Shown here in pieces: positions 20,240 to 60,585 of a stretch of DNA of 64,000 bases (positions are counted from its first letter, which is position 1; the number at the start of each line of letters is the position of its first letter). Made by a program: the position numbers and the translations under genes. The stretch covers positions 2,883,501 through 2,947,500 of the forward strand of contig NZ_JAQOUE010000001.1 in the NCBI RefSeq assembly GCF_032191465.1, given 5' to 3'. The DNA is from Candidatus Nitronereus thalassa (lineage in GTDB: Bacteria > Nitrospirota > Nitrospiria > Nitrospirales > UBA8639). A model generated the notes under the pieces. That model had not been told where the DNA came from. It saw only the letters and a list, made by a program, of their open reading frames with translations, and did no database searches.

Positions 20240-20440
20240 ATGCGTTGGGCGCGGCTGGGCTGCTGCCCCGAATCCTACCTCTCGGCGAGGACTGTCTGAG
20301 CGAAGCGAGTTTCCGAGCCATCTTGATTCGGGGTGGCAGAACAGGGACCCCTTGGGGCCGCGCACAGGCATGAATGGTTTTGGGTCCTTTTGCCGAAACA
20401 AAAGGACCTCGTCGGCGGGGCCGAAACCCCGCATATAAAA
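20240..20440 (+). repeat. Dispersed multi-hairpin repeat, copy B
   Basis: Full-length copy of about 200 bp. CCCCGAATC at 20266-20274 and GATTCGGGG near 20325-20333 make an outer stem. CCCC/GGGG near 20348-20357 form a short hairpin. GGTCCTTTTG at 20383-20392 and CAAAAGGACC at 20399-20408 form a perfect 10 bp stem with loop CCGAAA. GCGGGG at 20415-20420 and CCCCGC at 20427-20432 form a second stem with the same CCGAAA loop. The copy ends in GCATATAAA just before the ruvB stop codon. Confidence 0.88.
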
Positions 20441-20443
20441 AAC

Positions 20444-25689: not shown

Positions 25690-25830
25690 TGTAGTGCCGG
25701 GTTTCAGCCCGACAGCCGAGGCACTTTTGTTTCGGCAAATGTGCCCAAAGCCAACCTGGCCAGTGCACGGCCCTGCGGGTTCCTCTGCCTCCGTCCCGAA
25801 TAAGATGGCTCGGAAACTCGCTCCAAGGTA
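25690..25830 (-). repeat. Dispersed multi-hairpin repeat, copy C
   Basis: Reverse-oriented copy. GGCACTTTTG at 25720-25729 pairs with CAAATGTGCC at 25736-25745 across loop TTTCGG (the complement of CCGAAA). Two base pairs in the outer stem differ from copy B in a compensating way. CCGGG and CCCGA near 25698-25711 form the end stem. CCCGAATAAGATGGCTCGG near 25795-25813 matches the outer part of the element. The rest of 25830-26025 shows no feature. Confidence 0.8.
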
Positions 25831-26024
25831 AAAACCCATCTTTCAGCTCAAACAGTCCTCCCCGAAAAGTCAATTCGGGACTCCAGCTCCGCGGCGTCCA
25901 ACGCGGGAAACGGTGAAAACTTTTTAACTGACGAAAGTATGGAGGGGTATTCATTAAGGTGCGGTCCATTCATTTACGTCCCATCATTTCTGCGGTTGTC
26001 AGAGGGAATCCAGGTTTTATTTAA

Positions 26025-26110
26025 AGCGGGTTTTCGTGCCCGCGCGACGAGTCACTTTTTCCGAAACAAAAGGGACTCGCCATGCATGGGCGAAACCCTG
26101 CATATAAATA
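26025..26110 (+). repeat. Dispersed multi-hairpin repeat, short palindromic copy D
   Basis: Only about 85 bp. GCGGG/CCCGC at 26026-26043 form the left stem. GAGTC and GACTC (26049-26078) hold a central hairpin with CTTTT/AAAAG and loop CCGAAA. ATGCA-T-GGG pairs with CCC-TGCAT near 26082-26104 around a CGAAA loop. The left side resembles the reverse orientation and the right side the forward orientation of the other copies, so this copy is nearly symmetric. It ends in GCATATAAA like copy B. Confidence 0.75.
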
Positions 26111-57079: not shown

Positions 57080-58822
57080 ATGAAACATAGACAAATGTCC
57101 GAACTGGCTACCTCGCTTCAGTCCACCTTAGACCATCTTCCAAAGAAGCCTGGGGTGTACCTCATGAAAGGGAAGAAGGGCGAAATCTTATACATCGGCA
57201 AGGCACGAGTGTTAACCGATCGCGTGCGATCCTACTTTCAGAAAGGAGCCGACCAAAGTCCCAAGACGCGCGTGCTGGTTGGGCTCGTACAGGACATCGA
57301 AACCATCGTCACCAAATCGGAATTAGAGGCCCTCTTGCTCGAAAGCAATATGGTGAAGCGTCATCGCCCACGGTTTAATGTCGTGCTGCGAGACGATAAA
57401 CATTACCCCTATCTCCGACTTCCGGTGAAAGACAATTTTCCTCGGTTGTCCATTGTGCGTCGCGTGAAGCACGACGGCGCAATGTATTTTGGTCCCTATG
57501 TGCCGACCGGGGCATTGCGGGACACGTTAAAAATCATCAAAAAAGTTTTTCCCTTGGCAACCTGCAAAATCGATATTGATGGCACGGCCGACCGAGCCTG
57601 CATCGAATTTGAAATCAAACGCTGCATGGCCCCATGCACCGGCCACCAATCCCAGGAAGACTATCATCGGATTGTTCAACAGGTTCGCTATTTCTTAGAG
57701 GGACGGGATAAGGAATTATTGGATGGGTTGCGGGCGGAGATGGAGGCGGCGTCGAATCGAGAAGAGTTTGAAGAAGCCGCACGCTTACGGGATCGCATGG
57801 CGAATATTGCCAAAACGCTGGAAAAACAACGCATCGCGCAAATTGGTCCGGTGGATCAAGACGTAATGGGCCTGGCCCGCATGGGGCCGGCGGCGGACTT
57901 GCAGTTGCTGTTTGTTCGCGGCGGGCAGCTGATTGGCCGCAAGGATTTTTATTGGGCGGATACGAAGGAATCATCGGACGAAGAGCTCATACGGTCGGCC
58001 ATAGAACAGTTTTATAATAAGGATCTGGTCCCGCCGAAGGAAGTGCTGATCCCGACGAGGTTGGGAGATCGTGAGGTGATGCAGCAATGGTTGTCCGTCA
58101 AGAAGGAACAATCCGTGCGAATCCTCACCCCCGAGCGGGGGGTGAAACATCAGCTCTTACAACTTGCGACGGAAAACGCCGTCGCGGCAATTGCCGAACA
58201 CTTACGCAAAGGAGTCGTTGAAGAGCAAGAAGCCAAGGCGTTGCAACAACTGCTACATCTCCCGAATCCTTTAGGCCGTATTGAAGGGTTTGATATTTCC
58301 AATACCATGGGCACGAATTCAGTGGCCTCCATGGTGGTGTGGGAAGATGGAAAAATGAAAAAAGCCGACTACCGGCGCTTCAAAGTCAAAACCGTCGAAG
58401 GGGCCAATGATTTTGCCAGCATGCACGAAGTTGTGAAACGGCGGTATGGCGGATCACTCAGCGTGAACGAAGAAAAAGGTCTGCCCTTTCCAGATTTAAT
58501 CTTAATCGACGGGGGGATAGGGCAACTTGGCGCAGCCATGGATGCGCTCAGGGACTTGGGCCTGAAACATGTGCCCATTGTCGGGTTAGCCAAAGCCAAA
58601 GGCGAAAAAGAAGAACGCATTTATACTCCTGGTGTTCGTGAACCACTGATTCTCTCTCCCACATCATTGGCCTCTCACCTCGTCCAACGTATCCGCGACG
58701 AAGCCCACCGCTTCGCCATCACCTACCACCGCAAACTCCGAGGACAGGCATTGGTAATGCCATCAAAAACGAATAGCCAAAAACGAACAAGAGAAACAAG
58801 ACCGTCCACTGCGCCGACATGA
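57080..58822 (+). CDS. uvrC: Excinuclease ABC subunit C lacking the C-terminal HhH domain
   Basis: 580 residues. The GIY-YIG endonuclease is intact (KKPGVYLMKGKKG, ILYIGKARV). The UvrB-binding UVR region is present near 200-235 (NREEFEEAARLRDRMANIAK). The RNase H-like second nuclease has EGFDISNTMG, LILIDGGIGQL and DEAHRFAITYHRK. After YHRKLRG, typical UvrCs continue with SxLDxIPGIGxKR and a helix-hairpin-helix domain of about 60 residues. Here only about 27 low-complexity basic residues follow, and no remnant is visible in the other frames after 58822. Start ATG at 57080 or 57095. Confidence 0.95.
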   Translation: MKHRQMSELATSLQSTLDHLPKKPGVYLMKGKKGEILYIGKARVLTDRVRSYFQKGADQSPKTRVLVGLVQDIETIVTKSELEALLLESNMVKRHRPRFNVVLRDDKHYPYLRLPVKDNFPRLSIVRRVKHDGAMYFGPYVPTGALRDTLKIIKKVFPLATCKIDIDGTADRACIEFEIKRCMAPCTGHQSQEDYHRIVQQVRYFLEGRDKELLDGLRAEMEAASNREEFEEAARLRDRMANIAKTLEKQRIAQIGPVDQDVMGLARMGPAADLQLLFVRGGQLIGRKDFYWADTKESSDEELIRSAIEQFYNKDLVPPKEVLIPTRLGDREVMQQWLSVKKEQSVRILTPERGVKHQLLQLATENAVAAIAEHLRKGVVEEQEAKALQQLLHLPNPLGRIEGFDISNTMGTNSVASMVVWEDGKMKKADYRRFKVKTVEGANDFASMHEVVKRRYGGSLSVNEEKGLPFPDLILIDGGIGQLGAAMDALRDLGLKHVPIVGLAKAKGEKEERIYTPGVREPLILSPTSLASHLVQRIRDEAHRFAITYHRKLRGQALVMPSKTNSQKRTRETRPSTAPT

Positions 58823-59041: not shown

Positions 59042-59914
59042 ATGCCATTAATTTCTTTTCCTCGCCAATGCCAAAATGACATTAATATTTACAGAACGAC
59101 TGTGGAGTTATATTACGAAACCAAGAAAAACCCCGGAGATAGAATAATCTTTGAGTGCGGGGATGTTGGGTTTTTTAGGCCTTTTGGGCTAAATTTGTTG
59201 GCTAGTTTTATTTATGAATTCTTAAGGGAAAATCCAGAGAATGTCTATTTAACCCTGCCCAAGAACCCAAAGGTCGTAGAATATATGAAAAACCAAGGGT
59301 TTTTTGACTATTTTAGAGTCCCTCATCTAGGCGCTAATGTTACCTATGAACCTTTAAGTACAAGTGTGGCTATTAAAAGGTTAGAGTATTTGGACTATTC
59401 TTATTTTGAAAAATTAGGAGATTGGCTTTACTCGAATTGTCCTATTGACCTTGAAATTGCAAGGGCGATAGTGAATACACCATTTGTAGAAGTAATCAAT
59501 AACGTCTTTGACCACAGTAAATCCCCAATTGGTTGTTTTAGTTGTGCTCAAGCCTATCCACGTGAAAAACGATTGATAATTTCGGTACTTGATTTGGGGG
59601 TCGGATTTCTTAGCACTTTAAAGCCAGCTTTTCCACATCTGGAATCCGAAGTTGATGCAATAGAACATGCTGTTGGGGAAGGAGTAACAAGTAAAACAGA
59701 AAGACACGGAGGATCCGGATTATGGATTCTAAGCGGATTTCTAGAAACCTGTGGTGGCAAACTTGAAATTACTTCAGGTAACGGTTTCTGGAGTCAAAAT
59801 ATGGATGGAGTTCTTGCGAAAACCAAAATTCCGTTTGACTTACCTGGAAGTTGTATTAACATAAGCATTGATAACCTTGGAGTACTTTCAAGTATTTTTT
59901 CAGATGATCATTAA
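59042..59914 (+). CDS. STAS-like/GHKL ATPase fusion protein
   Basis: 290 residues from the ATG at 59042. The N-terminal 100 residues look like a STAS-type fold (RIIFECGDVGFFRPFGLNL, VVEYMKNQGFFDYFRV). The C-terminal part is a GHKL ATPase: N-box FVEVINNVFDHS (Glu150, Asn153, His158), G1 VLDLGVGF, and G2 HGGSGLWILSGF. It resembles RsbW-type anti-sigma kinases joined to an antagonist domain. Visibly AT-richer than its neighbours. Stop overlaps the next gene by 11 bp. Function unknown. Confidence 0.78.
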   Translation: MPLISFPRQCQNDINIYRTTVELYYETKKNPGDRIIFECGDVGFFRPFGLNLLASFIYEFLRENPENVYLTLPKNPKVVEYMKNQGFFDYFRVPHLGANVTYEPLSTSVAIKRLEYLDYSYFEKLGDWLYSNCPIDLEIARAIVNTPFVEVINNVFDHSKSPIGCFSCAQAYPREKRLIISVLDLGVGFLSTLKPAFPHLESEVDAIEHAVGEGVTSKTERHGGSGLWILSGFLETCGGKLEITSGNGFWSQNMDGVLAKTKIPFDLPGSCINISIDNLGVLSSIFSDDH

Positions 59915-60206
59915 TGTTAAAGAAATAACGGGTCCATACTGTGGCCAGTATGATGAAGGTGAATTACTTTACAATGTAGTATGCCCTCTTCTTTTAGAGA
60001 AGCAGTCAATAGTCTTAGACTTTAGTGGCGTTGCTTTACTATCCTCCTCATTCTTAAACGCAGCTATTTCCAAACTCTTCCATAAATTCGGTGCCGATTT
60101 CCTCATTAGTCACCTTTTTATAACAGGCATGAAAAAAGTTGATCGCTTTGTTTTGAATCGGATGATCAAAGAGGCCAAAGAAATCCGAGACTATCAACCA
60201 ATCTAA
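59904..60206 (+). CDS. STAS-like DUF4325 protein
   Basis: 100 residues from the ATG at 59904, overlapping the ATPase gene by 11 bp. SIVLDFSGVALLSSSFLNAAI matches the DUF4325 STAS-like core, with a short N-terminal strand region and an amphipathic C-terminal helix (NRMIKEAKEIRDYQP). Serines in LLSSSFLN stand where STAS antagonists carry the phosphorylated serine. It is therefore the likely partner of the upstream GHKL ATPase. AT-rich like that gene. Confidence 0.8.
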   Translation: MIINVKEITGPYCGQYDEGELLYNVVCPLLLEKQSIVLDFSGVALLSSSFLNAAISKLFHKFGADFLISHLFITGMKKVDRFVLNRMIKEAKEIRDYQPI

Positions 60207-60374
60207 AAATTTCTACTATCATTCCTGCAGGCCTAATTTTCTTTTTTTATATCCTATCAGATGGTTCGCGGTTATTGGGTGCTGACCACTATTGCGACCC
60301 TTGATCATCGCCTGCTAGATGGGGAAGCCTACACTTCCTCCCAGGTTGAAAACTTGACTTTTATCTGAGTGTCT

Positions 60375-60585
60375 CCCTGCGTTGTGCGCGGCGGAGCCGC
60401 AGCCCCGAATCGGCTTCTTTGGCGAAGGCTGTCTGAGCAGAGCGAGTTCCTGAGCGATCTTATTCGGGCTGTGGCGGAGGCACCCCGTAGGGGCCGCGCA
60501 CAGGCGGAAATGGTTTTGGGTCCTTTTGCCGAAACAAAAGGACCTCGTCGTGCGGGGACGACACCCCGCATTAATAAAGGACGCT
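60375..60585 (+). repeat. Dispersed multi-hairpin repeat, copy E
   Basis: Full-length copy. GCCGCAGC followed by CCCGAAT near 60395-60411 pairs with ATTCGGGC and TGTGGC near 60462-60476. CCCC/GGGG lie near 60482-60494. GGTCCTTTTG at 60519-60528 and CAAAAGGACC at 60535-60544 form the 10 bp stem with loop CCGAAA. TGCGGGG at 60551-60557 pairs with CCCCGCA at 60564-60570. It ends in GCATTAATAAAG. The upstream 60207-60374 shows nothing else; 60586-60708 holds only an AAAAAAGGAG leader for the next gene. Confidence 0.88.

Follow-up and report, generated by a model that had tools for sequence, protein, structure and literature searches.

The locus lies in the 4.0-Mb genome (2 contigs) of Candidatus Nitronereus thalassa, within a stretch of 64,000 nucleotides (positions 2883501-2947500) that was analysed as a whole and is called the window here; L and G numbers denote the loci and genomes compared. 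Between uvrC and leuS, two overlapping genes are found on the forward strand, one encoding a fused STAS-like/GHKL ATPase and the other a DUF4325 protein, and both open reading frames lie where an earlier sequence-only reading had placed them. The features of the locus, in window coordinates, are:

57080-58822, uvrC, flank of the pair
59042..59914, + strand, gene for a VapK/CapK-like STAS-GHKL protein kinase (ATG at 59042, 290 aa, stop included)
59042..59377, + strand, N-terminal STAS-like domain of the kinase (about residues 1-112)
59357..59884, + strand, GHKL kinase domain with SpoIIAB-like fold (about residues 106-281)
59489..59503, + strand, N-box E150xxxN154 (catalytic Glu and Mg-binding Asn by homology), invariant in 40/40 homologues
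59904..60206, + strand, gene for a DUF4325 (VapS-like) STAS protein (ATG at 59904, 100 aa, stop included)
60042..60050, + strand, Ser47-Ser48-Ser49 preceding Phe50; Ser48 aligns with the phospho-Ser48 of VapS, and Ser49 is the serine conserved in pairs lacking a PIN gene
60371..60582, + strand, 212-bp repeat rich in hairpins, bordering the AT-rich insert on its right
from 61657, leuS, flank of the pair

The DUF4325 gene starts inside the kinase gene, with an overlap of 11 nt. The GC content of the pair is 0.35-0.39, compared with about 0.48-0.54 in the uvrC and leuS flanks, and the contrast in base composition claimed from the sequence alone is therefore real. No sigma factor gene adjoins the pair at this locus, again as claimed, and regulation through an adjacent sigma gene was rejected for that reason. 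No integrase, phage or plasmid genes were found near the pair and no defence gene beside it; a promoter and terminator scan gave nothing above chance, and Rfam gave no match. Assignment to DISARM was considered because of a match to DrmA (PADLOC PDLC02567, 7.6e-12), which arises from a GHKL and DUF4325 segment contained in the 1750-residue DrmA profile; it was rejected, as there is no helicase at the window locus.

The kinase scores below the Pfam cut-off for HATPase_c (E 0.11). In an alignment of 40 homologues, residues E150, N154, H158, D184, G186, G188, G224 and G226, which form the motifs E150xxxN154, H158, D184xGxG and G224xG226, are invariant, indicating that the ATP/Mg site is intact. 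These ATPase motifs also hold up in a structural model (AlphaFold2, 5-row alignment, pLDDT 71, pTM 0.74), the top match of which is SpoIIAB (1til; Z 10.2, rmsd 2.6, 133 aligned; VIA-align), followed by UsfX (Z 8.2) and SiaB (Z 8.0), with gyrases and topoisomerases at 7.9 and lower. The matches to anti-sigma kinases mostly cover residues 106-281. For the first ~100 residues, the family profile matches the STAS domains of prestin and pendrin (E 0.0015-0.0035), and the order of strands and helices is consistent with STAS; direct profile comparison of this domain with DUF4325 is weak (probability 33%).

The second protein belongs to DUF4325 (PF14213, E 1.1e-12, 47.9 bits vs a curated cut-off of 23), and its model (pLDDT 87) matches SLC26 STAS domains and RsbV at Z 8.2-8.0 (VIA-align). 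With Foldseek alone, neither the kinase nor the DUF4325 model had a match with E at or below 0.001. Among solved structures, only Escherichia VapS (PDB 9z7o, E 3.8e-10; E 3.4e-32 with the DUF4325 family profile) is significantly related in sequence to the DUF4325 protein, while the CapS-like chain reaches only E 0.5 against the DUF4325 profile; CapS is inferred, from length and name, to be PDB 9z72/9z73. The sequence-only reading had described the pair as a compact anti-sigma kinase/antagonist switch: the structural matches support this build, but the closest kin are the immune switches CapK/CapS and VapK/VapS and not sigma regulators. DUF4325 is linked or fused to the kinase in nearly all homologues, and its presence in this form in every close homologue argues that the pairing is not due to chance. 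Fused STAS-GHKL-DUF4325 single proteins of about 390-440 aa (L053, L055, L056, L130, L131, L188 and L058) come from Nitrospirota, a gut phage contig and a Nostoc plasmid.

The VapKSC and CapKS systems were described together in June 2026 (Chambers et al., EMBO J 2026, PMC13373217). Both combine a kinase with a STAS substrate, and a PIN toxin or a repressor is released upon DNA damage (PMC13373217). VapKSC consists of the STAS-GHKL kinase VapK, the STAS antitoxin VapS and a VapC-like PIN toxin, which is blocked by the C-terminal tail of VapS (residues 94-116); a phosphomimic at VapS Ser48 abolishes this block, and the three-gene operon protected E. coli against phage Bas42 (PMC13373217). In CapK/CapS, an HTH-STAS-GHKL kinase is paired with a STAS-wHTH repressor; once ssDNA has activated it, CapK places a phosphate on a conserved CapS serine, and the immune operon is thereby freed (PMC13373217). 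The loci collected in that study contained vapK, vapS and vapC, or were followed by capS, and effector-less pairs were left aside (PMC13373217). Since the sole publication on VapKSC that was found retained vapC loci only, the PIN-less kinase-STAS lineage to which the window pair belongs appears to be absent from published descriptions. The F44 column in the N-terminal STAS domain of the kinase is occupied by Phe or Trp in 29 of 34 filled homologues (Phe in the window, Gln in L045 and Leu in L043) and is not universal; judging by column conservation only, F44 is a candidate counterpart of the ssDNA-contacting residues CapK W68 and VapK F54.

A PIN toxin encoded in trans was considered and rejected: a PIN profile detected no VapKSC-type PIN in the window genome or in seven other pair-only genomes, whereas it found the one in the control genome at 4e-72. 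In the kinase tree, PIN-linked loci form one clade (support 100/99), originating from Nitrospirota, a Deinococcus plasmid, a Streptococcus phage and a gut phage, and the window kinase falls among nine Nitrospirota loci that make up a PIN-less clade, also supported at 100/99. Because the window copy is too divergent for dN/dS and dS is mostly saturated, values were taken from relatives: the sister pairs give a dN/dS of 0.15-0.25 for the kinase and of 0.29-0.32 for its DUF4325 partner. Such low values indicate that both genes are kept by selection in these pairs.

The two lineages also differ around the putative phosphosite. Ser directly precedes the conserved Phe in 23 of 24 PIN-less partners and in 0 of 21 PIN-linked ones (Fisher p 6e-12, although relatedness leaves far fewer independent events); PIN-linked partners have Ala, Pro or Leu at this position, which is residue 49. 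The column of VapS Ser48 holds Ser or Thr in 20 of 21 PIN-linked and 15 of 24 PIN-less partners. The window protein carries both Ser48 and Ser49, and the phosphosite may thus be shifted by one residue, from Ser48 to Ser49, in its lineage. After the conserved Phe, all PIN-linked partners (21/21) have 60-67 further residues; PIN-less partners have 41-55 in 18 cases and 60-73 in six (50 in the window), so that tail length by itself is no clean marker. The match of the window DUF4325 protein to VapS stops at VapS residue 95, where the inhibitory tail begins (a numbering that assumes an 18-residue tag, inferred from chain lengths of 134 vs 116).

In the congener G001, the gap between uvrC and leuS contains a TIGR04255 gene and its partner (GC 0.38-0.41), followed by the same repeat (78%), the same conserved small gene and leuS. 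At this congener site (L157 3742-4970), the TIGR04255 gene overlaps an unnamed gene of 164 aa, the two forming a sporadic two-gene element. In a genome of another genus (G005) the gap contains HipB/HipA, and in a third relative (G010) it contains no cassette. The small gene that separates the window repeat from leuS is conserved, and GBBH-like_N scores just below the cut-off. Small accessory cassettes are exchanged at this gap, and the proposal of an acquired module in a variable region stands, as relatives carry one of three cassettes or nothing at this position. The repeat reported directly after the pair was also recovered: it is ~210 bp long, rich in hairpins (fold z -3.7) and present in at least 44 copies in the genome, including further window sites at 20241-20442 and 25692-26108. 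Neighbouring copies less than 3 kb apart form 16 pairs, compared with a random expectation of 1.5 and a maximum of 7 over 2000 simulations, with the orientation '-,+' in 11 of the 16 and '+,-' in none. AT-rich accessory genes (GC 0.36-0.48), usually one or two, occupy the space between such close copies, suggesting that the repeat brackets exchangeable cassettes. One repeat-bracketed segment (L165 1303-1985) holds what looks from its sequence like an MNT nucleotidyltransferase and HEPN-like pair, resembling a toxin-antitoxin system.

Scanning genome contigs with the window kinase yielded one further locus only, and scans of viral contigs with the window protein, the L051 VapK, the Hymenobacter kinase and a VapS fragment yielded no relatives. 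The neighbourhoods of homologues, which the sequence-only reading had singled out for inspection, vary among genomes and are not always housekeeping contexts: relatives occur in prophages, plasmids and defence islands. Nitrospirota VapKSC loci often lie within or beside restriction or defence systems, namely type I RM (L051, L118), Hma (L052, L093), type III RM (L049) and Avs2 (L050). PIN-less pairs have a wider range of settings: they stand alone amid housekeeping genes in the window, L041, L100 (behind clpP-clpX) and L040 (between ispG and a trmN-like methyltransferase gene), and rpsT is another such neighbour of sister pairs; the names clpX, ispG and rpsT, like HsdM/HsdS at L051, were read off protein sequences and not obtained from family searches. 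At one PIN-less locus (L108 2445-4948), the pair is followed 427 bp downstream on the same strand by a gene for a patatin-like phospholipase, which matches PADLOC phospholipase effectors (1.9e-73) and is a possible alternative output of that pair. On the mobile-element side, the prophage region of Marinitoga phage MPV1 (L133 4150-7354) has a gene for a DUF4041-MUG113 protein, PD-Lambda-1 of PADLOC (2e-117), directly upstream of a PIN-less pair on the same strand, with a serine integrase gene after the pair. On a Hymenobacter plasmid, PD-Lambda-1 again lies directly upstream of a PIN-less kinase-STAS pair, on the opposite strand; like the phospholipase, it is a possible effector. In Streptococcus phage Javan172 (L185 4828-5358), a VapKSC-like operon located between the integrase and the region of the lysogeny regulator is completed by a PIN gene missing from the annotation.

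Altogether, the module is real, well delimited and acquired, a kinase-STAS switch of CapKS/VapKSC type from which the output is missing. Its substrate lacks both the toxin-inhibiting tail and any DNA-binding domain, and no PIN of VapKSC type occurs in the genome, which points to a target encoded elsewhere. It is probably an acquired, DNA-damage-responsive partner switch acting in trans. The pair would have entered the uvrC-leuS exchange site in cassette form; the STAS-GHKL serine kinase would be stimulated, most likely by ssDNA from damage or phage replication, as CapK is, and would phosphorylate the DUF4325 protein where helix 2 begins, on Ser48 or Ser49. Phosphorylation would change what this protein binds, and the STAS protein, in its phosphorylated or unphosphorylated form, would act directly on the target, probably a host protein. 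Phosphorylation of the partner by the kinase is very likely, and ssDNA or DNA damage has about an even chance of being the signal. Location of the target in the host genome seems rather likely, and a part in defence or in conflict between mobile elements can be expected with about the same moderate confidence. A defence or stress role of the window pair, which had been put forward as speculation, is likely. The reading favoured here, and held with slightly more than that moderate confidence, is that of an acquired partner-switch pair with its output in trans, maintained under selection as an accessory module that serves in stress or against phages.

Three other explanations were weighed. The pair matches VapKSC in its two genes and in their order, with no toxin left, and could be taken as a decayed operon that has lost its PIN toxin and persists as a functionless or addiction-free remnant. 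However, the well-supported position of the window lineage outside the PIN-bearing clade implies no recent loss, both genes are intact, sister pairs evolve under purifying selection, and most PIN-less substrates lack the tail and show a different serine pattern. The remnant reading is thus largely refuted and is considered very improbable. It is scarcely more probable that the function belongs to mobile elements, in the timing of prophage induction or the exclusion of rivals, with the pair merely stranded in the window genome. The kinase does align along almost its entire length with phrog_3364 (2.5e-34) and its partner matches phrog_9989 over most of its length, the pair in Streptococcus prophages lies between the lysin gene and the attachment end, and the MPV1 pair sits directly behind the PD-Lambda-1 gene and ahead of a serine integrase; yet the window copy has no such mobile-element genes nearby, and sister pairs are mostly solitary chromosomal insertions.

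A pure regulator of stress or transcription, in which the DUF4325 protein would act like an anti-anti-sigma factor on a host sigma factor or another regulator, with no part in phage defence, is unlikely, though less so than the two preceding explanations. The nearest folds are indeed those of anti-sigma kinase/antagonist pairs, and since several sister pairs adjoin housekeeping genes, a stress regulator would fit these sites too. By sequence, however, the substrate is a relative of VapS, no sigma factor adjoins the pair, and the wider family resides in prophages, plasmids and restriction or defence loci. More tentatively, and with somewhat less than an even chance, the favoured partner switch would represent a separate class of two-gene immune or stress switches that has yet to be described, in which a damage-activated kinase toggles a bare STAS protein against a host target and no dedicated effector is needed; the fused GHKL-DUF4325 proteins would then be its one-gene forms.

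Pairs of the effector-less kind set aside in the published survey (PMC13373217) form a supported lineage of their own here; they are under selection, occupy varied chromosomal sites and have kin on plasmids and in phages from other phyla. A switch that works with no dedicated toxin would have to act on a host protein, and identifying this protein would uncover either a defence effector or a damage-responsive control point, new in either case. The uvrC-leuS site, where the alternative contents are toxin-antitoxin-like genes, adjoins a member of the repeat family that brackets AT-rich accessory genes elsewhere in the genome.

Among known families and systems, PHROG 3364 and 9989 are matched by sequence to the window pair, but they are phage-encoded and of unknown function. 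With SpoIIAB/SpoIIAA and RsbW/RsbV, the pair shares the folds of kinase and substrate and the logic of partner switching; it differs in the additional N-terminal STAS domain of the kinase and in having no adjacent sigma gene, and sequence similarity to these proteins is not significant. CapKS likewise has a STAS-GHKL kinase and a STAS substrate in tandem, but the window kinase starts at its STAS domain, with no HTH, its partner is a single 100-aa STAS domain with no winged HTH, and downstream of the pair the repeat, the small conserved gene and leuS take the place of an immune operon. From VapKSC, the pair is distinguished by the lack of a PIN gene at the locus and in the genome, by a DUF4325 protein that lacks the toxin-inhibiting VapS tail (residues 94-116) and carries an extra Ser at position 49, and by a kinase that groups in a PIN-less sister lineage and not with the PIN-linked kinases. 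With VapKSC it nevertheless has in common a kinase without an N-terminal HTH, a DUF4325 STAS partner encoded directly downstream, a Ser at the position of VapS Ser48 and, in F44 of the kinase, a candidate ssDNA-binding aromatic residue.
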